Position numbers and translations under genes: made by a program. The notes beneath the pieces are model-generated. The model was not told the origin of the DNA and searched no databases. It saw only the letters and a program-made list of their open reading frames with translations. This document shows positions 5,269 through 50,904 of a stretch of 51,008 nt of DNA, in pieces; within the stretch, counting starts at the first letter, position 1, and each line of letters starts with the position of its first letter. The DNA comes from a virus: positions 1-51,008 of IMG/VR virus record IMGVR_UViG_3300028595_000019; one strand, written 5' to 3'.

Positions 5269-5799
5269 ATGTCATACCAAAAAATAACAGCAACAGATCC
5301 TAACACAATAAGGTTTTATTATGCCCAGGACACTATATTTGATCATGTCTCATTATTGTCCATGCAAAGGGCAAAAAGAATTATTGATGAAAAGACAGGG
5401 GAGGACCAAACAGATGAGTACGGGATAACCCTTGATGAAAGAGATTTGTTTAAAAAACTTTTGGATAATGCTGCTACACAAATATTTTTGCTTATTAGAA
5501 AAATGGTTAATAGCGTTGATCCGGCATTCGATTCTGACGAAGGAGAAAGCACTTCTGATGACACTACAGATGATTATATTGAATTTTGGATAAGAGATAA
5601 CGATGCATATAATGAAGCTGATCTTGAATTAGTTGATAAGCTTGTACAGGAATGTTTAATTATGTACACTTTATTTGATTGGTATACCATTATTGGTTTA
5701 ACTGAAGAGGCTCAGAAATATCTTTCCAGGTATAATAACACCAAGAAAGATTTAGTTACTAAAGCCTTATACAAACTGAAGATAAGAAACATAAGTTAG
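5269..5799 (+). CDS. Unknown virion-associated protein, paralogue 2
   Basis: A 176-residue acidic protein, paralogous to the gene just upstream (shared spacing of the KKLL...IF and W-x-x-I-G motifs), which points to an old tandem duplication. No signal peptide, membrane segment or catalytic motif is visible; a connector or tail-assembly role is only a guess from position. Its stop codon TAG lies inside the outer end of a palindromic element (5796-5871), so the rightward structural operon ends exactly at the edge of the accessory block. Confidence 0.6.
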   Translation: MSYQKITATDPNTIRFYYAQDTIFDHVSLLSMQRAKRIIDEKTGEDQTDEYGITLDERDLFKKLLDNAATQIFLLIRKMVNSVDPAFDSDEGESTSDDTTDDYIEFWIRDNDAYNEADLELVDKLVQECLIMYTLFDWYTIIGLTEEAQKYLSRYNNTKKDLVTKALYKLKIRNIS

Positions 5800-5871
5800 T
5801 TACATATATCCTCACGTATTTGGATTTTATCGGTAATATTACTGATAAAAACGAGTTATGTGCAATAAAAT
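5796..5871 (-). repeat. Palindromic element copy A, 3' of the radical SAM gene
   Basis: Read on the minus strand, this 76-base element matches the element at 21085-21160 without gaps at about 67 of 76 positions. Its centre (5826-5849) is a 24-base near-palindrome with GTAATATTAC in the middle. It is oriented with the radical SAM gene and lies after it, as the other copies lie after their genes. One end overlaps the stop codon of the opposite-strand structural gene. It may be a cassette recombination site or a transcript-end hairpin. Confidence 0.75.
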
Positions 5872-5873
5872 AA

Positions 5874-5907
5874 AAAAATCCCACCGCACCTCAGTTTTTT
5901 CAAAACT
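5874..5907 (-). terminator. Probable terminator of the radical SAM gene
   Basis: On the minus strand, right after the stop codon, AGTTTTG-AAAA-AACT forms a short hairpin, followed by a G-rich stretch (GGTGCGGTGGGA) and a run of T. A very similar arrangement ends the gene at 49097 (about 49060-49096), including the same hairpin and a G-rich stretch before T-rich sequence, suggesting a shared 3' module. Confidence 0.45.
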
Positions 5908-6817
5908 GTTAGGTTTTGTAATCCTTCCAATCAATCGTTTTAAATATTGCTTTATGATTTACCCATCTTGAAAACATTTTTTGTTCTTTAGTTGGTAGTA
6001 TATTATTTTCAAAATCTCTATAAGGCTGTGCAAAAGGGTCGAGTTTCAAATCTTCCAAAAACAAAGCTCTTTCGTAAGCATCTTCAATGTCTTTTACAAG
6101 CAGGTATATAAAGTAATTTTTAGGCGTTGTATTATATTTCCTTAATAATTCAGTAGCTTTTTCAATGTATTTCATTTGAGATTTTTGATCACAAGCCATT
6201 CTTAAAGGCTTTGCCCATTTAACACGACTTAATAATTTTGCAATATCTTCATTGTTTGCTATTAATCTTGCATCTAATCCTTGGTTGAAGTCAATTTTTA
6301 TTCCTAAGTCTATTATTTTTTCAATCTGTTTTAATCCAAAATCAGAAGCTAAAACATTATTATCAAGCAAAACAGCTTCTTTTTGTCCGTTCCAAAATTC
6401 TGTAATATCAGCATTACCCTTTATTGAACCTTCTTTTTTTGGTACTATGCACCATTGGCACTTATTAGGGCATCCCCTTGTTAAAAATCCGTATGCTTTG
6501 TCTGTTTTATAAAGTGAATAATCAGGCATTAAGTGTTCAATTTCATCAGGCAAAGTATTTGTTTTATTAAATCCAGTACCACCATTTATAACTTCACCAT
6601 AATTACCAAATCCATTTACAAACTCAGGAGAAAATGTAAATACTTTACTCATATATGTTTTGTCATAATCTCCGATCGTAACAAACTCAACATTATCACC
6701 TTTTTGCTTATGAAATGCACTTAGTTTCATTAATGCTAAATTTGGGAAATTATGCCCATCTATATCTATTAATCCAATTTTTGCCATCCCTATTTTTTTA
6801 TTTTACAGACACCTAAC
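5908..6817 (-). mobile_element. Integron-like gene cassette 1 (radical SAM)
   Basis: On the minus strand the unit begins with GTTAGGT (6817-6811), which fits the integron R' consensus GTTRRRY, and the gene ends in its exact reverse complement ACCTAAC (5914-5908). In integron cassettes the two ends of one cassette are complementary because both come from its own attC site. The start codon follows the first core by 23 bases. The core is only seven bases, so this cassette is the weakest of the set on its own. Confidence 0.5.
5909..6787 (-). CDS. Radical SAM protein, carried as a cassette
   Basis: A 292-residue protein with the radical SAM iron-sulfur motif C-x3-C-x2-C (Cys106, Cys110, Cys113, in RGCPNKCQWC). 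The first 90 or so residues look like a degenerate cobalamin-binding-type Rossmann domain, as in B12-type radical SAM proteins, but I see no clear B12-binding His. The family cleaves S-adenosylmethionine to start radical chemistry; the substrate here is unknown. It is alone on its strand between a rightward structural operon and the methyltransferase. The stop codon lies inside ACCTAAC, the reverse complement of GTTAGGT that lies 23 bases before the start codon, which marks it as a possible mobile cassette. Confidence 0.75.
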   Translation of the reverse strand: MAKIGLIDIDGHNFPNLALMKLSAFHKQKGDNVEFVTIGDYDKTYMSKVFTFSPEFVNGFGNYGEVINGGTGFNKTNTLPDEIEHLMPDYSLYKTDKAYGFLTRGCPNKCQWCIVPKKEGSIKGNADITEFWNGQKEAVLLDNNVLASDFGLKQIEKIIDLGIKIDFNQGLDARLIANNEDIAKLLSRVKWAKPLRMACDQKSQMKYIEKATELLRKYNTTPKNYFIYLLVKDIEDAYERALFLEDLKLDPFAQPYRDFENNILPTKEQKMFSRWVNHKAIFKTIDWKDYKT

Positions 6818-6865
6818 ACGCAATATATGGCATAGAAAAAACGCCACATATTGCCACCCGTTACC
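6811..6865 (-). repeat. attC-like site between the ORF-less unit and the radical SAM gene
   Basis: Inverted repeat with arms GCAATATATGGC (6820-6831) and GCCACATATTGC (6843-6854), 11 of 12 paired, bounded by CCTAAC outside on one side and GTTACC on the other. AAC and GTT at the outer ends with an imperfect stem inside is the general plan of an integron attC site. No integron integrase is seen in the window. Confidence 0.55.
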
Positions 6866-6941
6866 GGCAAGCTGAATAAATAATATTATTCGTGCTTGTT
6901 TTTAGCTGTATCTCCTTTAAGAAGAACAGCCAGCCGGTAAC
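6860..6941 (-). mobile_element. ORF-less cassette-like unit of about 82 bases
   Basis: On the minus strand the unit runs from GTTACCGGCTGGCTG (from 6941) to CAGCTTGCCGGTAAC (to 6860). The two ends are reverse complements at 13 of 15 positions. No reading frame of any length lies between them; the middle holds a small palindrome, GAATAATATTATT. It sits directly before the radical SAM cassette in the same orientation, so this would be a cassette without a gene or the remains of one. Confidence 0.45.
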
Positions 6942-7003
6942 ACCGCGTATAAAACATGGCGGCCTCGGTTTTTCAAATTTAAGATACTGCATATCTGACC
7001 GTA

Positions 7004-20675: not shown

Positions 20676-20700
20676 AATGATGATTATTCACTTTATGGTT

Positions 20701-20830
20701 GCTAACGGACGAGTGTATGATATGTTGCGTTTAGACACGCTTAAACTATCGGATTAAAAACAGAATTAACAAATACAAAATAAAATTAACCAAAGCAGTA
20801 AATAGCAATATATTATACACATTGTTACCT
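20701..20830 (+). repeat. attC-like site before the gene at 20850
   Basis: Arms GTGTATGATATGTTGC (20713-20728) and GCAATATATTATACAC (20805-20820) pair at 14 of 16 positions. GCTAAC (20701) lies outside the left arm and GTTACC (20824) outside the right. The site begins 25 bases after one stop codon and ends 19 bases before the next start, as an attC does between two cassettes. Confidence 0.6.
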
Positions 20831-21100
20831 GCTTTTAAAATTACGATTTATGAAACGATTTATATGTTGGTACGCCTATCAAGGACAAGAAACAGAAGGG
20901 CAATTACAACTTAAAGAGCCAAAAATAATAAAAGCTATAGATATGGCAGAAGCTATGTGGAAATGGCATCATTTAGATTGCCCTGATTGGGGAAAAAGAT
21001 TCTATAATGACGACATAGAAGCATATAGAAAGAAAGGTGAATTTACAGGATGGGGATGTTGGTGTGAAGAACTAGCCAAGTAATTTTTATTGCAGGTAAC
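20824..21100 (+). mobile_element. Integron-like gene cassette 2
   Basis: The unit begins with GTTACCTGC (20824-20832) and ends with its perfect reverse complement GCAGGTAAC (21092-21100), nine bases after the stop codon. It holds one gene (20850-21083) in the same orientation. Matching ends with a private core sequence are what a circularised integron cassette would leave. Confidence 0.6.
20850..21083 (+). CDS. Cassette-borne small protein of unknown function
   Basis: A 77-residue protein unusually rich in Trp and aromatic residues (CWYAYQG, MWKWHH, GWGCWCEEL). No domain is recognised. The beginning, a strand followed by QGQETEGQLQLKEPKII, suggests a small alpha/beta fold. It is the only gene in its cassette, with a palindromic element directly after it. 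Confidence 0.6.
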   Translation: MKRFICWYAYQGQETEGQLQLKEPKIIKAIDMAEAMWKWHHLDCPDWGKRFYNDDIEAYRKKGEFTGWGCWCEELAK

Positions 21101-21160
21101 TTGTTTTTATACGTAATATTACAGATAAACTCCAGGTACGTGAGGATATATGTAACTAAC
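21085..21160 (+). repeat. Palindromic element copy B
   Basis: About 76 bases nearly identical to copy A at 5796-5871 (opposite strand). The centre (21106-21129) is a 24-base near-palindrome with GTAATATTAC in the middle. It lies between the gene at 20850 and the YopX-like gene and includes the 3' core of cassette 2. Confidence 0.75.
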
Positions 21161-27080: not shown

Positions 27081-28334
27081 ATGCTAACAGACGTTGAAAG
27101 ATTTAAGCTATTAAATATTCCCATAGACAGGGAGGATGAAGAAAAGGAAAAGCGTGAGCGAGAGAAGATGGAGAAGATGGAGAAGATGAAGATGACTACC
27201 GACATTCTTTCTCCGGAACCTGAGATTCTTACACCTGAAGAAGAATCAGAAGATAGCACTAAAAAAGACGGTTCTATCTCTATGAGCGATGAACAAGCTA
27301 AAGACCTGTTAAAAAATAGCGGTATCGATCTTGAAGCGATGAAAAAGGGAGGAAATCCATTATCTTATTTATTATCGAATCAAGGTGCAGGAAGTCCTCG
27401 CTCAAAAAGAGATAAGGCAAAGAGACAAAACATGTTGGGCGTACTCAGTGATTTTGGCAATCTACTTGTTTCGATGAGGGATTTGGATTGGGCTAAGAAA
27501 GGAGCCATTATCCCTGATAGAACAACTACTAAGAATACAGCCAATGAGCAATACGAAAAGTTGATGGATGTATATGACAAAGAGAATGCATATTTCAAGA
27601 ACTTAGAGTATCGTAACCAGGCAAACAAATTAAGGAATGATACAGAGTTAGAGAAACAGCGTTTAATAGGAGAAAGACAGGAAAAGAAACGTCTTAGCGA
27701 TATTGAACAGAAAGAGTTAGACCGTCAGACACGAGAGGATATCGCAAGGATGAGAAACTCAAGGAGCTCTAACAAGGTCACAAGGAATGATAAAGAAGAG
27801 AAAGCTCCTTATTATATTCCTTATAATGGTGAAGAAATTCCTATTACCAATGAACAGTATATCGATATTTACGGTTCATTGAAGAATAATCCTCCACAAA
27901 ACTTAATAGATGAGATCACAGGGGAGTTTATACAGCCCAAAGGGAAAGATGAATATGCAAGCGTAAGAAACCACTGGCAGGATTATTATGACGTGAATTA
28001 CGATCAGGACGGAAAACCTTACATTGTCCCTAAACAGCCAGAGCCATCTCCTACATTAGAGGGGAATGATGTTCACACAAAAGACTTTGATGATTTCCGG
28101 GGATCTGTTTCAGACTTAGGATTACCAAACAAACAAGGCCTTGGTAATAGCAACAATGAAAGCCAACAACAATATACATTACCAGACCAAGCGGTAGAAG
28201 ATTTGGGTATTATTATGAAGAATGCTCCATCAGAGAAGAGGTTAATTGCAATTAAGAAATTACTGATAAAATATAAGTATCCTGGGGATGTAGATGCTAT
28301 GGCAAACAAAATTGTTTCTGATTACAATCAATAA
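27081..28334 (+). CDS. Internal virion (ejection) protein, charged coiled coil
   Basis: A 417-residue hydrophilic protein with a long Lys/Glu-rich coiled coil (about 155-230), a disordered Pro-rich middle and a helical C-terminus ending in KYPGDVDAMANKIVSDYN. It lies 11 bases after the previous gene and four bases before the giant gene. A second ejected protein or scaffold for the giant protein is the most likely reading. Confidence 0.5.
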   Translation: MLTDVERFKLLNIPIDREDEEKEKREREKMEKMEKMKMTTDILSPEPEILTPEEESEDSTKKDGSISMSDEQAKDLLKNSGIDLEAMKKGGNPLSYLLSNQGAGSPRSKRDKAKRQNMLGVLSDFGNLLVSMRDLDWAKKGAIIPDRTTTKNTANEQYEKLMDVYDKENAYFKNLEYRNQANKLRNDTELEKQRLIGERQEKKRLSDIEQKELDRQTREDIARMRNSRSSNKVTRNDKEEKAPYYIPYNGEEIPITNEQYIDIYGSLKNNPPQNLIDEITGEFIQPKGKDEYASVRNHWQDYYDVNYDQDGKPYIVPKQPEPSPTLEGNDVHTKDFDDFRGSVSDLGLPNKQGLGNSNNESQQQYTLPDQAVEDLGIIMKNAPSEKRLIAIKKLLIKYKYPGDVDAMANKIVSDYNQ

Positions 28335-28338
28335 AGCT

Positions 28339-37300: not shown

Positions 37301-40300
37301 AGACAGATGATAAGTTTACTATTGCTGATGAATTTATTGCTGAGACAGCCGAAAAAGACGTTAAACCTAGCTGGTGGAAAGACTTCATCCAGAAGATCAG
37401 AGACCTTTTCAGGAAACTATTTAATATAAAGTACACCACAAAAGACATTGAAGGGTTGCTGAAGAAAAGTGCTAAAAACTTACGTAAAGAGGCAGCGAAA
37501 AGAACGGGACCACCTCAGAGAAAAGAGTATAAATATGCCGGAGAGTATATTGATGCTTTGGTAGAGAATTCTCCACGTCAACTCAAAAAGGATTCTCCCA
37601 ATGTGAGAGCGAGGTTAAAAAAAGACGAGTCTTTAGAAAAGAAAGAAAAACAGTTACTTGACAAACTGGACAAGATTCCTAAAAAGAAAGAGGTTCACTA
37701 TAACCACACCTTGATAAAGAACAAAATTAAGTACATTAAGCAAGGATGGAGATTAGGGAACATTGATACCAAAAGGTATATTAACGACTTACAAAAGAAT
37801 ATTGTTAGTTATGCTAAGAAATACATGCCTTTTGATCAGGCTGGGAAAGCTGAAGTAAATAAATTGTTATCATTGATTACAAAAGCTGATACTCCCGAAA
37901 AGGTAGAAGAGGCTTTTGATCAAATCACAGATATTGTAAGGGGAATAGATAAAAGAAGGATCATTTCTAATATTGATAAACTCCTAAAAAAGAACAAGCC
38001 TAAGACGGTAAATGGAAAACCTCAAGGCAGGATGAATCCAGATGTGTATGAAACCTTAGATAAGATAAGGGTAATACGAGGATTAAAAAGCGATGAGTTC
38101 GAAGAGTATTATGAGAACATTGATGAATTGGATGTAAAAGAAATTGCATTAGCTACCCTCTTTGGAAACTTAGAAGAGAAGTCGAGAGCTGAGTTAGAGG
38201 AAGCATACACCAAGTTATCCGACATCGTTGATATCGGGAAGATATGGTACAAGGACGACCTAGAGGACAGGGAAGAACACATAAAGGAATTAAGGTATAA
38301 GGCCATTGGGAAAATTACAGGAGGCAAAGGGATTGTCCCTGCACAAGAATATCCTGGTGGTATCCCTATAAGAAAAGGAGCCTTAGACGAATACGTCAAT
38401 AATAATCAGAGTTTTGAGTGGTTGTTAGACAAGTTGTCCAAGGATAAGAAAGAAGAAACAGCACAAGGATGGATGCAGGAATACTTTGGTGACTTGGTAC
38501 ATAAATCTACGAATGCAGAGACTAAAGGGATACAGGAAGTAACCGAACAGATACATAATAAGGCAGCCGAAATCTTTGGGAAAGATAAGAAGAAGCTTGC
38601 TAAGTTATTGGCTAAAAATTCAGAAAAGGTCAAGAACTCAGGAGTAACATTCATAAACAGAAAAGGAGAAAGGCAAGAAATTGAGTTATCTCAGAATGAT
38701 GCATATAAGAAATGGATGGAGTGGCAAGATCCAACGTTAGAAGGAACATTCGAAAAGATGGGATGGGATGGTATCACACTGTTAGAACTTGAGAAATTCC
38801 TTGATCCTAAAGTAAAGAAATGGGCTGAGTGGCAACTAGATGAGTTTTATCCGAGCTATTATGAAGGAGTGAATAAGAAGTTTAGGGAAACATATTATGT
38901 GAACCTTCCATTTAATGAGAAATATTCTCCTATACGTAGAGAAGTGACTCAGGTAGCCGACAAAGATGATAGCATGTTACGAAAGAGTAACTTACTTTCT
39001 AGTGTAGGAAATGCAAGTTTGAAATCAAGGGTAGTAAATAAAACAGACCTACAGTTATTAGATGGAGACCAGGCATTGATAATGCATGTCACTGAGATGG
39101 AACATTTCAAGGCATGGGTTGATACAATTAAAGAGCTTCGCGCAGTATTTGGATCACGAGGGGTACAACATGCCATTAAATATGAGCATGGTAATGGTAT
39201 ACGCTCTATTCTTAATAGACAGATTAATGATTTTGCCAGTGGAGGAAAAGACCGTTCAGATGTGATATACACCATTGACAAGGTTAGGAGAGCCTTTGTT
39301 ACGGCAGAGCTGGGATTAAATTACACCTTGATGCCTAAGCAGCTAGTATCTTCTTTTACTTATATGTCAGAGATGCCAATACATAAGTATGCAGCAGGAA
39401 TGATAAATCTTGCCTTGAATTTCAGAGAAGCATTCAATACGCTCACAGAGTCGGAAACTGTAAAAGAGCGTTATCGTAGAGGTTGGACTCATGAGGTTCA
39501 TTCTGCTTTAAAATCTAATATCCCAACGAAGATGTCAGGAGCAAAATCCACGATGAATGACATACGTAATTTCTTAATGATTCCTACTAAACTAGGGGAC
39601 TTCGGTGGAATAATGGGTGGATGGACAGTATATCGATATCACTATAACAAGCAAAAAGAATTACAAAAAACAGACAGCGAGGCTCATCGTTATGCCTTAA
39701 ATAAATTTGAAAGGGCTATATCTCGCTCACAACAGTCCTCAAGATTAGTAGATACCTCAGAATTGCAAAAGGGTTCGTTTGGTAAGCTGTTTACAATGTT
39801 TAAAAACTCTCAGCAACAGTATTTCCGATACGAAAATGCAGCGATAAGAAACCTTCTTAAAGGAAGAGGTTCAAAAGCGAAGAACATTAAAATTATAGCC
39901 TTATATCACGTATTATTACCTGTTATATTCCAGGCAGTAGCAAACTTTTTTACAGACGATGATCCTGAAAAAGAAAGAAAGAGACTGTTAAGGGCAGGAA
40001 TATTAGGCTCGTTTAACGGAATGTTAATCCTTTCGGACATTGTAGAGTTCTTATTGGAAAAAGCAATGGGAGAAAGATGGAGTTATTCAGCGACACCAAT
40101 TGAGGGAGCCGTTAATAATCTTGGTTATGGAGCATACAATATTTATTCCGGAATAAAAGACATGGACCGAGAGAAGGTACAAAAAGGATTGAAGCAGTTA
40201 GGTTATGGTCTTAACAATATGAGAATAGGTCTCCCATACAGGCCAACAAAAAAGATTATTGAGCAGATAAAAGATTTAAAGGAACCTGAAAGGGTTGAAG

Positions 40301-40572
40301 CCGAAAAGGTGATGGAGGATTTCAATAAGCTAAAAAAGAAAAATAAAGATTGGGAAAAGACAGCAAAAAGACTGAAAGAGAAAGGAGACGAAGAAGGGAT
40401 GTATGGCATGATGAGTAACTCTAAATACAGAAAACAAGAGTATGCCATATCGAATATAAATAAGATTATTAGAGACCTTGATAAAAAGAAAGAGTATAAA
40501 AAACTAACAGAAAGAGAGTATTACAATGAGAAAGCACGGCGAATAAAAAGAGAGTTAGAAAAAGCAAAATAA
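28339..40572 (+). CDS. Giant polyvalent ejection protein (about 4,077 residues)
   Basis: I place the start at the ATG at 28339, four bases after the previous stop. Domains, in approximate order: a Gly/Ala-rich hydrophobic region (110-400); charged repeats and linkers; a beta-clamp-like domain (about 1740-1945, with TTDELRPVMNGVLID, ASDAHKL and GNYPDYKAVIP); a polyvalent metallopeptidase-like domain with AHEWWHSLDNYF (about 2330); an ADP-ribosyltransferase-like domain from YHGTT (about 2539) to YDGIVL; a second metallopeptidase with HEIIAH (about 2946); long helical stretches; and a membrane-active region near 3850-3960. Such proteins travel in the virion and enter the host with DNA, where their enzymes may block defences. 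It fills a quarter of the window. Confidence 0.75.
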   Translation: MPDDKLLKILQKNGLYQSASSQSQTDEEDFDLDEFLSKYKNKPEEKEPQAKEEEVIDFRDLPDVDLQNLDLSKKDTKIVPTQQQEFDKTQQKLINEGQEYKDELKYEGDDVQNAVERGAYYGGKSAIGSMGIGLEEGALKVNDYLSKISDSPGYQEWIKQQDERIEGNIKEINQWKNSNLPEMQGTFGEKVGGALPFASMVVATALTKSPYMAQATAGSFGLMGFGEGIEAYDKEKENKDVLNEYYGKEPEEVDEAKRLGTGALYSAVYSLPMAKYLKSILPKNAYNKVIAKAFTKMANNPEISKAGTEIWEHFLKTSPAQAKTFAKQMGGKTLHSIGTMEGIGLGKLAVDKYFLDRDVSLDEFKQVATEGLESGLIFGVLTAPFGIYAQNTATKQRRQQQGSVVLGINPDGKAVEIIPGKEGNIGITPEGKQVKVSENTVRNSVKVPYDVFEKSINEFKKENKLYEGAETEAVQGNISELANKAAYKNGEDIYVYIDKDGKKYFIKDGEIKNKDEKLSVITEDGQSLKANIPRDKINIVSKDDFVLEGMKLWESRFKPKTTEEQVVENIQAKEQAKQQQKATEEAKINKNIEDMMSEVTHSNGKEVITFKNIRGRKYYLKEGDLKNNEIGTTRKAIDAETGKVVPVDFVPQEEVRYTVDEFKKFLEKEKGDYFSKQEAKELMDKIDPEKPFKFQGKDMMVVETTPMGIVAHDVNSQDVNEIILIPHSEFDKIEISPIQEEAYQVKKETEKEVEKYQKDLRVTVENEEVTLPFLPSEDGNYQLAKDVESKENALDLVDQLNKRYPNRVFEVYDLTDPNDEFAEARYTITSKPNIKENEQEKQEIQEQEQQQELGEEQRPTEEAAEENQVQEQVIPGLEKDINEYAGKLSKEFSRDKRQDIVAKLAEKERQLSKIKSEENKKKGIDLTGNTMTSSPSILDSEQNIDAKKTLSDRGFKTDIKWSQGEINHALKENSETDFAEGYLDMMVNNKSVIPIRSLPFAESYEQRQSIINNYKAYKEGKEELNEDTQKALEYLKQGFLNRGFEGKNDDARDYIDDYLEGQVDLDSEMMKDVINEYYKIDNDFKRRIERYQGLTLKEIIRNLSLEESIKFYDHARTKIQERDSKRKDGNDYPGIEGEKRGQKSEVREEVQKRGRSVEDFLSESKKVVEKSKESVSEYRQSLDKLENTLSGIEEKPKNKVKSKKDSELEQSSVTEDIPDRVQNKELTPASLNKIDDTEAPSRGSDTKLSESINVSSKSESNSQLANAKNEDKNKNLIIQQSNRVDLIKDVKYIETKETRIDNDFDKDDPEYNQYKALKPFFINEWYYADNTDPVTETFTNIEDALKDLRIPGNDLDLDGNYEPYKIIRLGVEEVWLDSDGNEVYDGDKISYDEWAYDNRDNEFVKKFGVESFIKDYSFDSLEKNAQELESKVYSNIHIDLINEYESNGNKLNIKTPSSGKYRRIIVENEKGEDVGEIKLRISDHAYNPANNNFENDIVSIEIANENKTAKKFNGLYGLRFNGENTYNEVVELVNDRIKEIIDNWNIDKNQEIQQAEQEVEQNPSEEQKGNVSTGENVSKNQPEFAGEVISKPKEKKENEKDDTGRDQQEEKNGREPSEALVDDLKINSSKNKSDKINTLDDIDKKMILDRVLKSIKEKNYREFYGTKPIFEIIAIQEIEEYLYAEIDLSTEEVNEIFISKENTDKYISKIIKEFLESDLSKVKIIPEKNRINSLPEANIGTLNPVSIEYKKQPIKKNIQASVLGSLKNVITTDELRPVMNGVLIDPENNVMVASDAHKLVVIPVKAGGKKRIIAPKNINNSYKYKKGQEIEGNYPDYKAVIPEKTTTLNDKFKTKDLLERLEGINRVRKFITVPQEVVTILNFNDTEIHLQPNILYDAIEALYLNGSKEVEVSSTGYADRAVVFRDVKNKDKLALVMPIIPGGLKVHVNLNKGNTVIKPAKDKDVVSEKIQPNNLKDVGEKIGGAKKDIWKQAINITKDDIVSQPLSKSFPEPDYLKMIEEGGVSIDNAILMKFLYDNIPSKPRKKYRVQSWVNKVQNVIDTYNDLLDKGIDRAGKLESSIPDKFGGVADEFRIYKDIMKEFGFPKEIIKLGTYGIRKFHGRDDYTITNGRFIVKDFPTIKEAAKHLKNILSNNKEKRKKISFGVYQNRNSGEIYIGKKSATGVVPIVKGFTKLEDASNHLKENQEQLESIWEGMKIKVKERRDINRQRVGTDWRKGKDVTASEYSDTFGFRGVEFGNWVNLKERQEHVNAAYDSLMDLATALNIPAKAISLGGELGFAFGARGSGDASVHYEPGKVVINLTKTKGAGSLAHEWWHSLDNYFSRKRGEKLNYLTQKPRQGVVISENRKVVPDERIRKEMHDAFKGVVDAINKSGLPTRSKRMDETRSKLYWSTPIEMSARAFENFIIEKLGASNQSNDYLANFKETGEWIKSGVDMDSYPYPLKEESEKINSAFQEFFDVIQTKTDEQGNEVMFRIKEASQVEDITETDNFKKWSKNAPILQGFDIQGTKPGEPQVFDVYHGTTNEFYIFDPKVKGEIESHFGLVNYFTSDEYDANQNYLSTGPDLTNRIEREKEQLEYTIEEELEDLGFDELKENYNLPDNFTEDSSPEEIAKYISEKKLKGGSEKIMELFVRLDNPVVINGINKTWIEPYNESKIEDYLEDATREIAEEYDISEEEAKEDYSPEIRERAIEIGGIENQIIEAAQKAAWDNGVDPNDVLQALPEQVYFESVSADDINNSIRKSESAAYLEDDDGKLVNHQIIGDIFKNLGYDGIVLVNARDFFYNMKMDPNTSHVHLFDGFQNQVKLSDGTNVEFGESNDIRFRQNLSRPTRPNIADAGKYVEYRDKLDEFDKAVRDMAQAAQKEFGVPVNVVSQVKELPEKIQRIIKDSGHDIKKITGLYDPIREEVHIVSTNNKSTDEIKQTIAHEIIAHKGLRQLFGNEYVNIAEQIYESIPQKDIDRLADVYQTDDKFTIADEFIAETAEKDVKPSWWKDFIQKIRDLFRKLFNIKYTTKDIEGLLKKSAKNLRKEAAKRTGPPQRKEYKYAGEYIDALVENSPRQLKKDSPNVRARLKKDESLEKKEKQLLDKLDKIPKKKEVHYNHTLIKNKIKYIKQGWRLGNIDTKRYINDLQKNIVSYAKKYMPFDQAGKAEVNKLLSLITKADTPEKVEEAFDQITDIVRGIDKRRIISNIDKLLKKNKPKTVNGKPQGRMNPDVYETLDKIRVIRGLKSDEFEEYYENIDELDVKEIALATLFGNLEEKSRAELEEAYTKLSDIVDIGKIWYKDDLEDREEHIKELRYKAIGKITGGKGIVPAQEYPGGIPIRKGALDEYVNNNQSFEWLLDKLSKDKKEETAQGWMQEYFGDLVHKSTNAETKGIQEVTEQIHNKAAEIFGKDKKKLAKLLAKNSEKVKNSGVTFINRKGERQEIELSQNDAYKKWMEWQDPTLEGTFEKMGWDGITLLELEKFLDPKVKKWAEWQLDEFYPSYYEGVNKKFRETYYVNLPFNEKYSPIRREVTQVADKDDSMLRKSNLLSSVGNASLKSRVVNKTDLQLLDGDQALIMHVTEMEHFKAWVDTIKELRAVFGSRGVQHAIKYEHGNGIRSILNRQINDFASGGKDRSDVIYTIDKVRRAFVTAELGLNYTLMPKQLVSSFTYMSEMPIHKYAAGMINLALNFREAFNTLTESETVKERYRRGWTHEVHSALKSNIPTKMSGAKSTMNDIRNFLMIPTKLGDFGGIMGGWTVYRYHYNKQKELQKTDSEAHRYALNKFERAISRSQQSSRLVDTSELQKGSFGKLFTMFKNSQQQYFRYENAAIRNLLKGRGSKAKNIKIIALYHVLLPVIFQAVANFFTDDDPEKERKRLLRAGILGSFNGMLILSDIVEFLLEKAMGERWSYSATPIEGAVNNLGYGAYNIYSGIKDMDREKVQKGLKQLGYGLNNMRIGLPYRPTKKIIEQIKDLKEPERVEAEKVMEDFNKLKKKNKDWEKTAKRLKEKGDEEGMYGMMSNSKYRKQEYAISNINKIIRDLDKKKEYKKLTEREYYNEKARRIKRELEKAK

Positions 40573-42664: not shown

Positions 42665-44077
42665 ATGGAATGTCCGAAATGCTTTAGTTCAAACGTAACT
42701 AAAGAAGGAAGTTATTTGTATGACGGAGAAAGAGTACAGCGTTACAAATGTCATAATGAAAATTGTGATGTGGATAGGTTTAGTAGCCGGACCAGGTTTA
42801 ATGAAAAGACTCGACATAGAAGTCGGAAGGAATCTTTTAACCAACGGGATTTTATCATTAATAAATACAAGGATGACGAGAAAGAAAAGGAACGAATATT
42901 AGATGGTGAAATATCTTCAAAGACAACCGATAGGAAAAAGATTCTAAGTAAGTTTTTAGAAGAGTGTGAAGTAGATATTGATAAGTGGGAAGTGGAGAGG
43001 TTTTTATTAAATGCGTGGGACGTAACTATGAAAATAGGCAAATATAATGCCGAATCTATTCATAAAACTTATAAAGACGAAAAAGGAGAAACCGTACATC
43101 AAGGTAAATATAGTGCTGAATCTGACAACCATTCAGAAACATATACAAACTACCAAATAAAAGTATGGCTCAAACCTAAAACTAAAGACTTCGATCCAGA
43201 AGTATTTAAGGCACAAATAATAGAAGATATTACCAAGCATTCCCCGTTAATTAAAGAAATAAAATATAAACCTAAGAATGAAAAGAATTTATTGGTTTTA
43301 AATCTATATGATGCGCATCTAGGTCGTTTAAGCTGGGGAGAGGAGTCTGAAGGGAATTATGACATAAAGATTGCCGAGAAATTAATTTTTAAAGTTGTCA
43401 ACGGTCTTATAGAAAAGTCTAAAGGATTCTCCCCAGAAAAAATACTTATTCCTGTAGGACATGATTTCTTAAATTACGACTATGCAAAGCCTTTTCCACA
43501 AACAACAAATGGCACACCACAGGAAGCAGATGTACGCTGGCAAAAGATGTTTAGGATAGGTTATAAGATTTGGTTTGACATAATCGATTTGCTTAGTAAA
43601 AATATTGCTCCTATAGATGTGATAAGCATACCGGGGAACCATGACGAGCAATCTATTTTTTATCTGTCTGAAGTATTATATATGAAGTACTTTAATAATA
43701 AGAACGTACATATTAACAATGCTCCGAAAAAACGGAAATACTATAATTATGGACAGAATCTTATTGGTGTAACACATGGGAGATATGAAAAAAAGACAGA
43801 GATTCATAACCTTATGTTTAGTGACCGAGATGCAAAACCATTTTTAAGCAAGACAAAATTCAGGTATTTCTATTTAGGACACTTACACCATGAGAAACAA
43901 GTGCAGATCAAATCGGAGGATTATCGAGGAATGATTGTAGAGTTTCTACCATCTATAGCACAGACAGATGCTTATGAATTTGATAGAGGATATTCAAGTA
44001 TTAGAGGTGGTACAGCAATGGTACATAATCATAAATATGGAAGGATAGCTAAGTTTAATCATAATATTATGGAGTAA
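42665..44077 (+). CDS. Metallophosphoesterase with N-terminal zinc finger
   Basis: A 470-residue protein. The N-terminus has CPKC and CHNENC, a zinc finger for DNA or protein binding. The C-terminal half is a calcineurin-like phosphoesterase: LYDAHLG (about 220), a later GHDFLNYD, GNHDE (about 327) and GHLHH (about 410) supply the two-metal site. The family cuts phosphodiesters or phosphates; in phages between portal and other head genes it may act on DNA ends. Stop overlaps the next start by one base. Confidence 0.8.
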   Translation: MECPKCFSSNVTKEGSYLYDGERVQRYKCHNENCDVDRFSSRTRFNEKTRHRSRKESFNQRDFIINKYKDDEKEKERILDGEISSKTTDRKKILSKFLEECEVDIDKWEVERFLLNAWDVTMKIGKYNAESIHKTYKDEKGETVHQGKYSAESDNHSETYTNYQIKVWLKPKTKDFDPEVFKAQIIEDITKHSPLIKEIKYKPKNEKNLLVLNLYDAHLGRLSWGEESEGNYDIKIAEKLIFKVVNGLIEKSKGFSPEKILIPVGHDFLNYDYAKPFPQTTNGTPQEADVRWQKMFRIGYKIWFDIIDLLSKNIAPIDVISIPGNHDEQSIFYLSEVLYMKYFNNKNVHINNAPKKRKYYNYGQNLIGVTHGRYEKKTEIHNLMFSDRDAKPFLSKTKFRYFYLGHLHHEKQVQIKSEDYRGMIVEFLPSIAQTDAYEFDRGYSSIRGGTAMVHNHKYGRIAKFNHNIME

Positions 44078-45625: not shown

Positions 45626-46540
45626 TTATTGTTCTGGCCTCCTCAATACTTTCATTTTTTTAATGTTGCTAATAATTTCAATACTCTTTTTGCTCTCCTT
45701 AATACCAAATCCATTTCCTTCTAAAATGTGTTTATAGCTTTCGGTATGAAGATCCGTGAAGCCATTACTGAATTCCAGTTCTTTCCCTTCAACGGTTATT
45801 CTTCTGAAAGTACGCTGTCCGGCCTCCCTTACTTCGTCAGGAAGTTCATTCTCATCAATACTTAGCTTCCAATTTACTGAAGCTCTCCTAAAATATGTAT
45901 GTCCTTCAATAGTGGTGCTTGTCCTTCGAAAGAGTTCTGTGTTGTCCATCTCTCCAAAAATCCACTGTAGCATATCAAAGAAATGGACTCCTATATTAAT
46001 AATTAATCCACCAGACTTATTATAGTCTCCTTTCCATGAGAAATGATACCAATTGCCTCTGGATGTGATGTATTCTAATTCTACATCATAAGGATAATCG
46101 CTTGACAGGTCAACACTCTCTTTTAGTTTTATTATTTCAGGATGTAAACGTAATTGTAGAATATTGTAAACATTCCCTGGTGAACGTTTTTCAAGGTCGA
46201 GCAATCCATCTATATTCCTTGGATTTATTACCAATGGCTTCTCACAGATAGCATTTGTTCCATAATTTAATGCATACCTGATATGAGAATCATGTAAGTA
46301 GTTAGGAGTACAAATACTGATATAATCGATCTTTGTATTCTTCTGTTTTAACAAATGTAAATACCTGTCGAAACGTTCAAACTCTGTAAAGAAATGCGCG
46401 TGTGGGAAATAGCTATCTATTATTCCTACGCTATCACTTTTATCAATAGCAGCGATTACGTTATTTCCTGTTTCTTTAATGGCTCTTAAATGACGAGGAG
46501 CAATGTATCCACCTACTCCTATAATTGCAAAATTTTTCAT
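45626..46540 (-). CDS. Gfo/Idh/MocA oxidoreductase, WlbA/WbpB-like
   Basis: A 304-residue NAD-dependent dehydrogenase: Rossmann motif GVGGYIAPRHL near the N-terminus, AICEKPL (about 92-98) with the catalytic-region EKP, and GGLIINIGVHFFDMLQW (about 178-194) with the family His. It is like WlbA/WbpB, which oxidises UDP-N-acetylglucosaminuronate at C3 in LPS sugar synthesis. Two bases separate it from the 2-epimerase gene, so the two act in one sugar-nucleotide route. The exact sugar cannot be fixed. Confidence 0.78.
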   Translation of the reverse strand: MKNFAIIGVGGYIAPRHLRAIKETGNNVIAAIDKSDSVGIIDSYFPHAHFFTEFERFDRYLHLLKQKNTKIDYISICTPNYLHDSHIRYALNYGTNAICEKPLVINPRNIDGLLDLEKRSPGNVYNILQLRLHPEIIKLKESVDLSSDYPYDVELEYITSRGNWYHFSWKGDYNKSGGLIINIGVHFFDMLQWIFGEMDNTELFRRTSTTIEGHTYFRRASVNWKLSIDENELPDEVREAGQRTFRRITVEGKELEFSNGFTDLHTESYKHILEGNGFGIKESKKSIEIISNIKKMKVLRRPEQ

Positions 46541-46542
46541 GG

Positions 46543-47604
46543 TTAATAGCGTTTAATTAGTTCTTTTAATATTTTTGTTCCTGCTTTGCCATCACCAAAC
46601 GCTGAAACATTATACACACTTTTATCTTGTGATTTGGTAATGGCCTCGATAATTTTAATCTTGTTAGCTCCCGTTAAGATGTTCCAGTTGCCAATACATG
46701 TATTCGGGTATTCTGTATCTTCTCTAAGGGTAATACAAGCTCTTTTCATGTAATAAGCTTCCTTTTGTAGTCCTCCACTATCGGTTAATACTTTTCGGCA
46801 TAAGAATAAAAGGTTAAGCATATCATAATATCCTAATGGTTTGGTGAATATGATGTTTGTTGTATCATTCTCTATAGCAGAAACCATGTCCTTAATACGA
46901 GGATGTACAGGCAAAATAACTGGGTGAGGCAATACATCTAAAGCATCGATGATAGATTTAAAATTCTCTTTATTGTCTGTATTGCTTGGCCTGTGTATCG
47001 TGGCTAAATAAAAATTTTTTACATCAAGATTTGTAATGAAAGGACTAAGGGTTTCTGAGGCAATACGAAAATTGTAAAGAAAGCTGTCATAAGTTATATC
47101 TCCGCTATAAATATGCCTGTCAGATAGACCTTCGAGGTAAATGTTATAGTTTGCTTCCTGTGAAGGAGAAAACAATAAATCACAGATATGATCTGTTGCT
47201 ATACGATTTATCTCCTCTGGCATTTGCCTGTTAAAAGAACGTAATCCTGCCTCTACGTGAGCAACAGGAATATGCATTTTAACGGCTGCCAGTGCTCCGG
47301 CAAGCGTGCTATTTGTGTCTCCATAGACTACTACGCAATCAGGTTTTTCCAGCTTGAGAAAATCTTCTATCATACCAAGCATTTCACCTGTTTGCCATGC
47401 ATGAGATTTACTTCCTACCCGGAGGTTGAATTTTGGTTTAGGGATGGAAAGTTCCTGGAAGAACTGATCGGACAGCATGTAATCATAATGCTGCCCTGTG
47501 TGGATCATCACTTCTTCAATATCATTATGCTTCTGTATCTCTCTGGATAGTACAGCAGCCTTTATGAATTGTGGCCTTGCGCCAACTATAGTTACTATTT
47601 TCAT
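46543..47604 (-). CDS. UDP-N-acetylglucosamine 2-epimerase type (WecB/WbpI-like)
   Basis: A 353-residue non-hydrolysing 2-epimerase: GARPQFIKAAV at 8-18, TGQHYDYMLSDQFF, VYGDTNSTLAGALAA (about 92-106), HVEAGLRSF and MPEEINRIATDH with the catalytic Asp/Glu region, and VHPR (about 220). These enzymes turn UDP-GlcNAc-type sugars into ManNAc-type sugars for surface glycans. The neighbouring WlbA/WbpB-like gene points to the WbpI branch acting on diacetamido uronates. Confidence 0.85.
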   Translation of the reverse strand: MKIVTIVGARPQFIKAAVLSREIQKHNDIEEVMIHTGQHYDYMLSDQFFQELSIPKPKFNLRVGSKSHAWQTGEMLGMIEDFLKLEKPDCVVVYGDTNSTLAGALAAVKMHIPVAHVEAGLRSFNRQMPEEINRIATDHICDLLFSPSQEANYNIYLEGLSDRHIYSGDITYDSFLYNFRIASETLSPFITNLDVKNFYLATIHRPSNTDNKENFKSIIDALDVLPHPVILPVHPRIKDMVSAIENDTTNIIFTKPLGYYDMLNLLFLCRKVLTDSGGLQKEAYYMKRACITLREDTEYPNTCIGNWNILTGANKIKIIEAITKSQDKSVYNVSAFGDGKAGTKILKELIKRY

Positions 47605-47655
47605 GGTTTGGGTTTTAAGTTCTTGGCCTTAAACCCTCACCATCCTAATTGCCAG

Positions 47656-47952
47656 TTAGGTTAATTCTTTATTACCTTCTTTTGTTTTTATATTAATATC
47701 GTCCATAAGACTCATTGATAAATCTCTTGTGTATAATTTGATGATACGATCATAGACTTTACTCCTTTCTTCTTCTGAATCGAAATACCATGATTCTGAA
47801 TTATTTTGTTCAAAACTTCTACCCTCGAATTTTTTAGAGATATAATTTTCTCCGAAAAAAAATTCAATCCAAGTATCATATTTTTTCCCAATCTTTGTAA
47901 CTAAATCCAAGTTTATAGGATCGTTATTTTTGTATGTAATAAATTGTGCCAT
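47656..47952 (-). CDS. Small unknown protein in the glycan operon
   Basis: A 98-residue acidic protein (MAQFITYKNNDPINLDLV) without recognised domain, signal or membrane segment. It is two bases after the gene at 47955 and 51 bases before the epimerase gene, within one leftward transcript. Confidence 0.55.
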   Translation of the reverse strand: MAQFITYKNNDPINLDLVTKIGKKYDTWIEFFFGENYISKKFEGRSFEQNNSESWYFDSEEERSKVYDRIIKLYTRDLSMSLMDDINIKTKEGNKELT

Positions 47953-47954
47953 AA

Positions 47955-48182
47955 TTATTCAATTAAATCTTCTGTAAATATGTTATAATCTTCGTGCATC
48001 ATTCTAACAAGCTCACGATATACCTCTTTCCAATTTAGTCTGCCTACTTTTAATTGTTCTTCAGCATGTAAAAACCTTTTATAAAAATTGTTTTCCAATT
48101 CAAATAGAAACGAAGCCATATCACTTGATTTAGCAAGCATCTTACTCTCTTTCTCTGTCTCAGCTATAAATTGTGCTTTCAT
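47955..48182 (-). CDS. Small phage protein of a Bacteroidota type
   Basis: About 75 residues from the ATG at 48182, which overlaps the glycosyltransferase stop (TGATG). The pattern MASFLFELENNFYKRFLHAEE...VYRELVRMMHEDYNI is like short helical phage proteins I know from Bacteroidota; their function is unknown. Confidence 0.6.
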   Translation of the reverse strand: MKAQFIAETEKESKMLAKSSDMASFLFELENNFYKRFLHAEEQLKVGRLNWKEVYRELVRMMHEDYNIFTEDLIE

Positions 48183-48907
48183 CAAAAATTGTCTTTAATA
48201 AATTTCTGTAACTCGCTATTTAACCCAGCGTTATTGTAATTCATAAATAACTTTGGGAAACACATCTTTTCAATATACTTATATTTATAAGCATGGTATA
48301 CTTCAGCTTTATAATGTGGACTCTTGATTAACGATGTATCAGGAGCAGGACAATAGTTGTTAAAATATAATGTATTGAATAAGTATGGGCTTTCATTTAA
48401 GTTATACTTGTCAATAATTGCCCGGACTTTTTCTTTATTATATATCCTGGGTAAATGTGTTTCGTAATCCCAAACAGGAAGTCCCTCAGATTTTAACTGC
48501 CTGATTGTTTTAGTGAACGTATTATACCAATGAGGAGACGGTTTATGTCCTCTTTTAAAGTACTCTGCCATCTTTTTGGGGTAATCCCTAGCTAAGATAA
48601 CTTTAAACGGTTTTATGTCCGTTTTCTTGAGTAATATGATATCATCGTACATGTAAACAAAATCGTCATTTATCTGTGGGGTATTAACAATTTTTGTCAG
48701 CTTCTTAATCGAATCTAATGCCTTAGCATGTTTTACATTTGTAATCTGACTACACGGAACATGTATTACGTTCCTAATTTTTGGGTTGTCTCCAACTACA
48801 AATATCTTCTTCTCTCCAATAAAATTAAGCTGAATGCTTCTTATTGAATGTAATAATTCTTGCCAAATAGCAGGTTTTTTAACCCATACGTAGACGAAAT
48901 GTGTCAT
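48182..48907 (-). CDS. Stealth-like glycosyl-phosphotransferase / glycosyltransferase
   Basis: A 241-residue protein. YVWVKKPAIWQELLHSIRSI at the start, FVYMYDDIILLKK (about 84-96) with a DD metal motif, and LPVWDYETHLPRIYNK (about 148-163) follow the layout of Stealth-type capsule phosphotransferases. It would add a sugar (or sugar phosphate) to a cell-surface polymer. It leads the leftward operon with the epimerase and dehydrogenase genes. Confidence 0.6.
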   Translation of the reverse strand: MTHFVYVWVKKPAIWQELLHSIRSIQLNFIGEKKIFVVGDNPKIRNVIHVPCSQITNVKHAKALDSIKKLTKIVNTPQINDDFVYMYDDIILLKKTDIKPFKVILARDYPKKMAEYFKRGHKPSPHWYNTFTKTIRQLKSEGLPVWDYETHLPRIYNKEKVRAIIDKYNLNESPYLFNTLYFNNYCPAPDTSLIKSPHYKAEVYHAYKYKYIEKMCFPKLFMNYNNAGLNSELQKFIKDNF

Positions 48908-49004
48908 TTTAGCTTATTTTGATAGTTTTTCACATTAATAAATTGTCTGTCTTTTTCAGTTGTTCCCATTTTGTTTATCTTTGAAAGGTGTACATACATA
49001 CAAG

Positions 49005-49630
49005 TTAGTAGCAAGCGGGGTTTAGTTCTCGTATCAAAGTTTCTACAAACTTGGAAGAAAAAAAGAAAAGCCCCACCCGCTTTAGTTTTTTCAAAACTAT
49101 TTGGATTTAAACCTCTGAATTAAACCATTAGTGTATGTTTTTGCTTCTTCGTAATTAACCAAATTGGCATCTACAACATTTTTAATACTCTTTTCAATAC
49201 CTTCATCTCTTTCAATATTGTATTCGTTTAATACATCAGCTAAATAAAACTTCCAACCTAAAACGTGGCATTGTGCAACTATATTTCTAGCAGCACCAGC
49301 CATAAATCCAGTTATTCCACCTTGGTCATCACATTTACAAATAATACCGTGTGGTGTTGTCATATCAGGGTTATATCCAATATTAAATTCACCTTCAAAG
49401 CTATCTAAATGCTTCATTACATTTATAGCCACATTTACACACGCACCACCATAACCATCTTGGTTTGCATCTATACTTTTTTGTAAAGCATCTTTGTTAA
49501 TTAGTCCTTTAATTGAATCATAATTTTTCATAATTGTAATATTTAAGTTTTTAAAAAATTTCCCACCCTTCGCTTTTATTTTTAGTGCTTCGTTGTAGCG
49601 GCAGTGGGCAAATATCCGCCAGCTACTAAC
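49005..49630 (-). mobile_element. Integron-like gene cassette 3
   Basis: On the minus strand the unit begins with GTTAGTAGC (49630-49622) and ends with its perfect reverse complement GCTACTAAC (49013-49005). The match resumes after two differing bases with GCGG on both sides. It holds the gene at 49097-49531 in the same orientation. Confidence 0.6.
49097..49531 (-). CDS. Cassette-borne unknown protein (144 residues)
   Basis: A 144-residue soluble protein. A Gly/Cys segment (DGYGGACVNVAINVMKHLD, about 26-44) and TPHGIICKCDDQGGITGFMAGAARNIVAQCHVLGW (about 64-98) look like the core of a compact alpha/beta domain with conserved Cys residues; I recognise no family. The start lies about 90 bases after the 5' core of its cassette, and a hairpin and T-rich stretch like that after the radical SAM gene follow the stop. 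Confidence 0.6.
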   Translation of the reverse strand: MKNYDSIKGLINKDALQKSIDANQDGYGGACVNVAINVMKHLDSFEGEFNIGYNPDMTTPHGIICKCDDQGGITGFMAGAARNIVAQCHVLGWKFYLADVLNEYNIERDEGIEKSIKNVVDANLVNYEEAKTYTNGLIQRFKSK

Positions 49631-49723
49631 ACGTTGTATATGTCAGTTTTGCCAATTGGCTTTTGTGCTTTGAATCAAAGTATGTGCTTGGCAAAACCGA
49701 ACACATACAACCAGCCGTTAGTA
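49624..49723 (-). repeat. attC-like site, 100 bases, nearly fully paired
   Basis: From the outside inward: TACTAAC with GTTAGTA (7 of 7), GTTGTATATGT with ACACATACAAC (10 of 11), GTTTTGCCAA with TTGGCAAAAC (10 of 10), and an inner CTTTGA/TCAAAG stem. The left core belongs to cassette 3, the right core lies ten bases after the stop of the gene at 49734. This is the clearest attC-like structure in the window. Confidence 0.65.
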
Positions 49724-49733
49724 ATAATAAAAA

Positions 49734-49925
49734 TTATTCATCTTCCTTATAATGTACCGCAAAGGATTTTCCGTTTATAACTCTTAATCCATCTTTTATT
49801 CTTTGAAGCTTTGTTTTCAGTGAATAAAATGGTAATGGTTTTGCTATATACCACTTCAAGTCTTTTGCTTGTGCTGTTGTTGAAGTGTCCGCTTCTTTCA
49901 GTAATTTGTCAATTAGTATGCTCAT
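49734..49925 (-). CDS. Small unknown protein (63 residues)
   Basis: A 63-residue protein (MSILIDKLLKEADTSTT, then AKPLPFYSLKTKLQRIKDGLR), probably helical and basic. Its stop lies ten bases before the 3' core of an attC-like site, so it is probably cassette-borne; its 5' core was not found. Confidence 0.55.
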   Translation of the reverse strand: MSILIDKLLKEADTSTTAQAKDLKWYIAKPLPFYSLKTKLQRIKDGLRVINGKSFAVHYKEDE

Positions 49926-50103
49926 AATTTTTTCTATTTATAACATTATTTAAAATTCATTAAACCGCTTTTTACATTTACCGTTGTCAGTCTTTAAAAT
50001 TACTTTTTACTTTTTTTGTCATTTTATAACCTTACATTTTATTCAACTGTCTTGGATTTCTTGACGATTCAAAATTATTGCACTGTATAGAATACATAAT
50101 TTC

Positions 50104-50316
50104 TTATTTTTTGCCCTGTGTATTATCCATTTCTTTATTAATTACATAAGCCATTTGACAAATGTGGTCATCTATTAAATCTGCACCAAATGTCTTATAC
50201 ATCATCATTACCTTGAATGCATGAAAATATTGATCAAGTCCGACATCTGAATTGTTGAAAGTTATCTCAATTTTACCCTCTTTGCTTTCTAGTGTTATTT
50301 TAGTTTGTTGTTCCAT
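50104..50316 (-). CDS. Small unknown protein (70 residues)
   Basis: A 70-residue protein, beta-rich N-terminus (EQQTKITLESKEGKIEITF) and helical rest. Its start codon lies directly after palindromic element copy C. No domain is recognised. Confidence 0.55.
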   Translation of the reverse strand: MEQQTKITLESKEGKIEITFNNSDVGLDQYFHAFKVMMMYKTFGADLIDDHICQMAYVINKEMDNTQGKK

Positions 50317-50379
50317 TACGTGATAAGTTAATATTAGGAGTTTATCTGTAATATTACAGATAAAAACAAGTTATAAGCC
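50317..50379 (-). repeat. Palindromic element copy C (perfect 24-base palindrome)
   Basis: On the minus strand TAACTTGTTTTTAT leads into a perfect 24-base palindrome (50341-50364, arms TTTATCTGTAAT), then AAACTCC. About 37 bases are shared with copy B; the outer part differs. It sits between the DUF1660-like gene and the gene at 50104, and its outer end is the 3' core of cassette 4. Confidence 0.7.
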
Positions 50380-50534
50380 ATTTAATATCGCCTATACTCT
50401 TGTTTTAAGCATCTATCACAAACATACCATTCTTGTCCTTCTGTGCTTTTCATTGGTCTTTTCCATTTGTGTCCAAATATTCTGCAAATTAATCTTCTTA
50501 GTTTCATATCTTTTGTTTAAAAACGGCTTATAAC
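50370..50534 (-). mobile_element. Integron-like gene cassette 4
   Basis: On the minus strand the unit begins with GTTATAAGCC (50534-50525) and ends with its perfect ten-base reverse complement GGCTTATAAC (50379-50370), two bases after the stop codon. It contains only the DUF1660-like gene, whose ATG is about 20 bases after the 5' core. At about 165 bases it is small for a cassette. Confidence 0.6.
50382..50507 (-). CDS. DUF1660-like small zinc protein (41 residues)
   Basis: A 41-codon frame MKLRRLICRIFGHKWKRP...WYVCDRCLKQEY. The C-x3-GHxW and C-x2-C pairing fits the small phage family DUF1660, which probably binds zinc. The function is unknown. The frame fills its cassette exactly. Confidence 0.6.
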   Translation of the reverse strand: MKLRRLICRIFGHKWKRPMKSTEGQEWYVCDRCLKQEYRRY

Positions 50535-50623
50535 AAAGTGTATAGTTAAAAAGCCAAATTAATATTCGTTCATTTAATTAAAGTTTGTGTGTTGGCTTTC
50601 AAACCATACACAAGACGTTAGCA
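50528..50623 (-). repeat. attC-like site between cassettes 5 and 4
   Basis: GTGTATAGTT (50538-50547) pairs with AACCATACAC (50602-50611) at 9 of 10 and AAAGCCAA (50550-50557) with TTGGCTTT (50592-50599) at 8 of 8, with TATAAC and GTTAGC outside. It lies five bases after the stop of the gene at 50628 and 20 bases before the start of the DUF1660-like gene on the minus strand. Confidence 0.6.
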
Positions 50624-50904
50624 GTAATTATTTTTCTTTACGCCAGAGAACAACCCTCCGCTCCTTTTCTAATTGACTTACGTGTTTACCACATCTTTTA
50701 CATGTAAAACTTTCGTAATTACATGCCGGATAAACCATATAGCTTATGGAATCATTTTCTACCAAATAAGGAGGGCAATACATATCTGTTGTCATTACAA
50801 TACCACCTTTCACATGCCCACGCTCCAGGCATATTTTATTAACATTTGTGTCTATGCTAACAGTATCAAACTCTTGTGAAAAAGAAGAATAACATACTGC
50901 TAAC
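50617..50904 (-). mobile_element. Integron-like cassette 5, 5' core inside a reading frame
   Basis: On the minus strand GTTAGCAGTA (50904-50895) and its perfect ten-base reverse complement (50626-50617) bound this unit. The 5' core lies inside the frame of the gene at 50628, within the hydrophobic segment of its signal sequence, so the upstream part of the gene may belong to older DNA to which the cassette was joined. Confidence 0.45.

Follow-up and report, generated by a model that had tools for sequence, protein, structure and literature searches.

Cassettes with attC-like sites in a phage contig: probable parts of a phage-adapted integron-type recombination system

Introduction

Integrons are gene-capture platforms of bacteria, and an array of cassettes without a recognised integrase is classed as a CALIN. 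Integron components and CALINs in phages, as well as the use of their attC sites by IntI1, are already described in the parts of Qi et al. 2023 (PMC9892861) considered here. Bartlau et al. 2021 (PMC8776804), who reported the Polaribacter phages Freya and Danklef, took an integrase as a sign of potential for a temperate lifestyle, and the words 'integron', 'cassette' and 'insertion' are absent from the main text of that paper.

Here we consider an IMG/VR virus record of 51,008 bases, referred to in its entirety as the window. An earlier note, made from the letters alone, had proposed that one end of it carries an integron-like cassette array; we compare this locus with related viral and cellular loci and weigh how its cassettes may move.

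The contig and its cassettes

The window encodes a portal protein (phrog_156) and a 423-aa phage-type integrase (phrog_1), the latter being its sole integrase, and has a G+C content of 33%. The integron-integrase profile TIGR02249 matches neither the window contig nor G001, in agreement with the earlier note, which had seen no IntI and a single integrase of the ordinary phage type. Both contig ends are open. Searches for tRNAs in the window, for Rfam families in the cassette region and, by BLAST against named phages, for the left flank of that region returned no match. Relatives of the phage, sought through the protein encoded at 42665-44077, reached just 33-41% identity and offered no comparable empty site. 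Terminase_6N, used as a test of viral character, was found in 7 of 34 records, and in neither the window nor G001; the viral status of most records is IMG/VR's own classification. Two further regions deserve mention: minus-strand genes at 45626-48907 resemble a nucleotide-sugar epimerase, an oxidoreductase and, weakly, Stealth_CR2, and are possibly glycan genes adjoining the cassettes, while a single ORF of 4092 aa occupies 28294-40572 amid structural genes.

Table 1. Cassettes, attC-like sites and attI-like sequences in the window.
Feature	Position	Strand	Description
Cassette A	49004..49630	-	GTTAGTAGC ... GCTACTAAC around a 144-aa gene (49097-49531); boundaries recur in L002, neighbours differ
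Cassette A gene	49097..49531	-	144 aa, function not assigned; weak phrog_9822; relatives in L002-L005
Cassette B	50370..50534	-	GTTATAAGCC ... GGCTTATAAC around the DUF1660-like gene (50382-50507); exact 10-nt core pair; PF07874
Cassette C	20824..21100	+	GTTACCT ... AGGTAAC around a 77-aa gene (20850-21083); assigned from sequence
Probable cassette D	5855..6817	-	Around a radical-SAM gene (5909-6787; phrog_9298); core match imperfect
attC-like site	49624..49723	-	Upstream of cassette A; R'' TACTAAC, L''/L' stem, R' GTTAGTA; score 36; z -4.1 as minus-strand DNA
attC-like site	50528..50623	-	Between signal-peptide gene and DUF1660-like cassette; R'' TGCTAAC, R' GTTATAA; score 29; z -3.2
attC-like site	20700..20830	+	Missed in the earlier note; score 25; weaker, folding no better than shuffles
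Short attC-like site	6811..6866	-	Missed in the earlier note; before the radical-SAM gene; score 21.5; z -4.1
attI-like	50337..50373	-	Abuts the 3' core of cassette B, with TTGTTTTTATCTGTAATATTACAG following YAAC; repeat family D3/I2
attI-like	21097..21133	+	Follows cassette C; 88% match over 76 nt with the copy at 5795-5870
attI-like	5795..5870	-	After the radical-SAM gene
Sequence after 3' core of cassette A	48987..49003	-	TTGTATGTATGTACACC; presumed attI-like, by position only

The units at 49004-49630 and 50370-50534 are cassettes (A and B in Table 1). GTTAGTAGC stands at 49004 and its reverse complement at 49622-49630; for GTTATAAGCC, at 50370, the reverse complement occupies 50525-50534. 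This complementarity between a 5' core and its own 3' core is found in cassettes A, B and C, and imperfectly in D. Three units with private matching cores had originally been proposed. The first two do have exact cores on both sides; in the third, the partner core for GTTAGCAGTA (50895-50904) falls within an ORF that encodes a signal peptide and remains open to the contig end, and this 5' core is probably a chance match. Matching cores alone are weak evidence, because exact 10-mer core pairs occur at 8 of the 795 YAAC sites in the window, the real ones counted in. The suggestion that one gene is DUF1660-like is borne out by a match to PF07874 at 28.8 bits (cut-off 21.4).

Long, imperfect inverted repeats are present at 49624-49723 and 50528-50623, where they had been noted, and the folding check proposed for them came out in their favour: on both strands they fold better than dinucleotide shuffles (z -3.0 to -4.1). 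Both have the architecture of attC, with R''/R' cores, an L''/L' stem and a foldable hairpin, and may be read as folded single-stranded sites. Measured against the strict RYYYAAC / GTTRRRY, the window cores always have the AAC/GTT and differ in the outer bases (e.g. TACTAAC, GTTAGTA). The site at 20700-20830 folds no better than shuffles (z +0.2 and +0.4), though stem and cores are present.

Sites were sought with two finders. Counts in the window from the first, which was symmetric and without polarity, were no better than in Markov sequence, and it was replaced by a polar finder with spacers of 5 nt between R'' and L'' and of 2-3 nt between L' and R', an asymmetry taken from the related phage locus L002. 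At a score of at least 24, the polar finder returned three sites in the window against about 0.1 per 51 kb of first-order Markov sequence; it was hand-tuned on L002 and written after both the window and L002 had been read, and the window sites are no independent test of it. Upstream of the short site at 6811-6866 there is also a tiny unit of about 90 bp (6855-6944), with GTTACCGG and CCGGTAAC as its cores and no obvious gene.

One repeated sequence of the phage follows the cores at 50373, 21097 and 5858. Among the loci compared, a pattern made from this attI-like repeat, drawn after the sequences that it matches had been seen, matches only the window, L131, L079 and contigs of CPR bacteria and archaea; in the CPR and archaeal contigs the sequence sits 5' of a recombinase. 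In 296 Bacteroidota genomes the motif had one match, with two mismatches. It is closer to CPR/archaeal attI than to the attI of the viral recombinases described below, a resemblance that is no more than suggestive.

Cassettes in related viruses

The 144-aa protein of cassette A has four relatives in viral contigs (L002-L005) and none in genome contigs or named phages, the latter being equally true, for named phages, of the DUF1660-like protein. The relative in L002 is 85% identical and sits in an array whose sites have spacers of 5 nt (R''-L'') and 2-3 nt (L'-R'). The two units align from the GTTAGTAGC core to GCTACTAAC, where identity ends on the 3' side; on the 5' side the shared sequence takes in about ten bases of the attC that precedes the unit, and the neighbours differ. 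The genes in L003-L005 are 63-64% identical and without cores, so the cassette A gene also exists outside cassettes.

The signature is widespread. A pattern drawn from a few sites has matches in at least 120 stretches from viruses and in 34 from cellular contigs, and viral arrays reach 18 sites. In L011-L090 the polar finder located 292 sites in 636 kb, where the Markov rate predicts about one; up to about 80-90 of the 292 are the seed matches themselves, and these loci test the finder better than the window does, although each of them had been selected by a single match to the pattern. In Polaribacter phage P12002L, one of the phages of Qi et al., the same finder located six sites, of which five share the minus strand with the genes around them.

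Viral and cellular cassettes differ in how their genes are turned. The longer ORF reads toward attI in every one of 261 scorable cassettes from viruses and away from it in none, 39 cassettes without an ORF of 50 aa and 21 ambiguous ones being left out. In cellular cassettes, 21 read away from attI and 5 toward it (about 17 and 5 once repeated loci are dropped); related records make all of these counts less independent than they look. Because the position of attI and the asymmetry of the spacers agree in the viral and cellular sets, the difference lies in the gene, which is turned within its cassette. The genes of the window are oriented as in viruses: they are turned relative to attC polarity when compared with most cellular cassettes, a correction to the earlier note.

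As for cargo, 80 viral cassette proteins, taken as the longest ORFs (a choice that favours enzymes), included 12 N6_N4_Mtase, five MT-A70, one D12 methylase, one C5 methylase and one Thoeris inhibitor, Tad3.

A recombinase at the end of viral arrays

In viral relatives, a tyrosine recombinase of about 268 aa without the IntI-specific insertion is found at the array. At all 12 viral recombinase loci sampled (L178-L189), an attC-like site lies upstream on the strand of the recombinase, which follows the 3' end of the array; sites in L187, L188 and L189 have equal spacings and these are probably near-copies, leaving about ten independent loci. In each of the ten of these loci inspected in sequence, the last cassette ends in AAC, followed by a TA-rich, attI-like sequence and then by the start of the recombinase. 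The attI beside the recombinase gene is a constant 5' site in the relatives; the window has no such recombinase.

The catalytic residues are present in the viral proteins, and a segment of roughly 45 residues known from IntI is absent. This insertion is likewise absent from CPR proteins and present in two true IntI (L166, L167). TIGR02249 matches 14 of 35 virus records, all under its cut-off. The best curated models are NF040815 (184 bits) and XerD (156 bits), the nearest families being XerA, XerD and IntI, under every curated cut-off; the best PDB match is an archaeal Xer-like protein. In a tree with a midpoint root, placed for drawing only, the IMG/VR recombinases alone form a firm group (99/97), their union with a protein from one bacterial genome that has the viral form of attI (L191) rests on a weak branch (76/95), and CPR proteins group with IntI. 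The array-end recombinase would have the catalytic role.

Several loci outside the viral set were noted. L191 (G174:C1, 249138-249929), from a Bacteroidota genome, encodes a virus-type recombinase at 47% identity, with GGTAAC followed by TATTATATAT before the start, and is possibly a prophage. On other Bacteroidota chromosomes (L192, L193, L198, L202, L205, L213, L217 and L218), the recombinase has an attI-like site on its 3' side, and the cassettes there read away from this site. In CPR bacteria and a Pacearchaeota contig (L134/L169, L139/L172, L145/L177 and L157/L175), attC-like sites occur within a few kb of a recombinase that lacks the IntI insertion and is preceded by a GTTTTTAT.CGAA-type site. 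Finally, Cellulophaga phage Ingeline_1 (L234, 4500-5500) has GCTAAC followed by ACCCACATAACTCC before its integrase, resembling the attI of Freya, and may hold another phage integron.

Isolates of Polaribacter phage Freya encode a related recombinase (37.5% identity) and differ by whole cassettes. We compared stretches of 2.5-7.5 kb, ending in the recombinase, from seven of the ten isolates (1, 2, 5, 6, 8, 9 and 10). The arrays of Freya_1, 2, 5 and 6 nest within one another, differing by exactly 842, 902 and 472 bp at the junction of YAAC and attI; Freya_10 exceeds Freya_9 by 307 bp at this junction, and Freya_8, compared with Freya_10, lacks the 902-bp cassette from the interior of the array. 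These differences carry no direction of gain or loss, and the crossover is not placeable within the common AAC. Record lengths of the isolates are consistent with the cassette sizes. The backbone, compared over a 23.6-kb stretch only, has a reported identity of 100.0% in all ten isolates; Freya_2 and Freya_4 score slightly lower (43622 bits, against 43639), which indicates a few differences there.

The Danklef isolates (L246-L250, Polaribacter phage Danklef_1-5) match the recombinase gene only in truncated form, and their array content also varies: a 781-bp methylase cassette of Danklef_5 is absent from Danklef_3 and _4, with a clean YAAC junction. Such a difference is what action in trans would predict; it could also stem from exchange with another phage or from movement that preceded the truncation. 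The earlier note had let the cassette view stand or fall with clean presence or absence at the cores in related genomes, and on this the view has held: L002 shares the boundaries of cassette A among different neighbours, and near-identical isolates show presence and absence of whole units at YAAC/GTT.

Discussion

We consider it probable, at roughly 0.7, that the units in the window are cassettes of a phage-adapted integron-type recombination system whose recombinase likely acts in trans or belongs to a missing part of the genome. Each cassette would be bounded by private YAAC/GTT cores and followed by an imperfect hairpin, its attC. In related viruses, the tyrosine recombinase of about 268 aa sits at the 3' end of the array, with the attI-like sequence between the last core and the start codon, and cassettes would be gained and lost both at attI and within the array. 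Because cassette genes read toward attI, array and recombinase are co-oriented. The window phage, without this recombinase, has cassettes ending in attI-like sequences at three places or more. Their arrival, and perhaps continued movement, is most likely owed to a recombinase that acts in trans, its source being another phage, a prophage or the host, or to one whose gene lies in the missing part of the genome. The earlier note had offered an integrase in trans or another recombinase; the latter is supported for the family, and for this contig we infer that the likeliest mover is a recombinase of the phage type, which would act in trans on orphan attI-like sites. Against this reading weigh the absence of the recombinase from the window, the lack of an empty site from any close relative of this phage, the resemblance of the window motif to CPR/archaeal attI, and one site of the four that folds no better than shuffles.

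The wider proposal carries a little better than an even chance in our estimation: that Bacteroidota phages have an integron class of their own, with a recombinase lacking the IntI insertion, attI directly before its start codon and cassettes with genes directed at the recombinase, rich in DNA-modification and counter-defence genes, that are gained and lost among sister phages, while phages lacking the enzyme keep orphan attI-like sites and use it in trans.

The window could instead hold an ordinary CALIN, the phage having taken cassettes from a chromosomal Bacteroidota integron whose integrase moves them, if anything does. Related recombinases and attC arrays do occur on Bacteroidota chromosomes, and IntI1 recombined five of six phage attC sites tested, according to the parts of Qi et al. 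(PMC9892861) considered here. Gene orientation points the other way, with 261 viral cassettes toward attI and none away against 5 and 21 in cellular arrays, and with the window on the viral side. With such a difference, viral cassettes give no appearance of having been borrowed recently from the sampled cellular arrays, and we regard an ordinary CALIN as unlikely. We think it less likely still, indeed improbable, that the arrays are relics inherited by descent that nothing moves now. In favour of this, the contig lacks a recombinase and the core pair of cassette D is imperfect, but cassettes A and B retain intact cores and stems, an unrelated array also has cassette A, and a whole cassette still distinguishes sister phages whose recombinase is truncated. 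That the hairpins are terminators or other intergenic structures beside chance core pairs, and no recombination sites, deserves very little credence: they are intergenic and near stops, and 10-mer core pairs occur at about 1% of YAAC sites, but hundreds of sites share the polar spacing, cassette A is shared, isolates differ exactly at like sites, and for the family the Freya series contradicts it.

If viral arrays have a dedicated recombinase outside the definition of IntI, many phage CALINs may belong to functional systems. The cargo suggests a route by which phages could quickly swap DNA-modification and counter-defence genes, which would be the benefit of such a system. Freya isolates, near-identical bar their arrays and with a cultured host, would make cassette capture testable in a phage.

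Within the open-access literature, to which our search was confined (subscription papers and preprints lay outside it), no report was found of a phage recombinase at the array end, of reversed genes or of the Freya series as an integron, and within that literature these points appear new. The phage CALINs of Qi et al. (PMC9892861) likewise consist of attC cassettes in phages, mostly without an integrase; in the parts of that paper considered here, there is no phage recombinase at the array end and no orientation census, and the proposed mode of entry is illegitimate or off-target recombination. Freya and Danklef (Bartlau et al. 2021, PMC8776804) share with our loci this type of recombinase gene together with cassettes. 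XerA, XerC and XerD provide the best-scoring curated models for the viral recombinase, yet all of these scores fall below the cut-offs, and the viral genes sit at cassette arrays. With chromosomal and mobile integrons, the viral systems have in common an attI beside a tyrosine recombinase, a polarity of attC relative to attI, private cores and insertion at attI; they differ in a recombinase that lacks the roughly 45-residue segment of IntI and scores under the TIGR02249 cut-off, and in genes that read toward attI.
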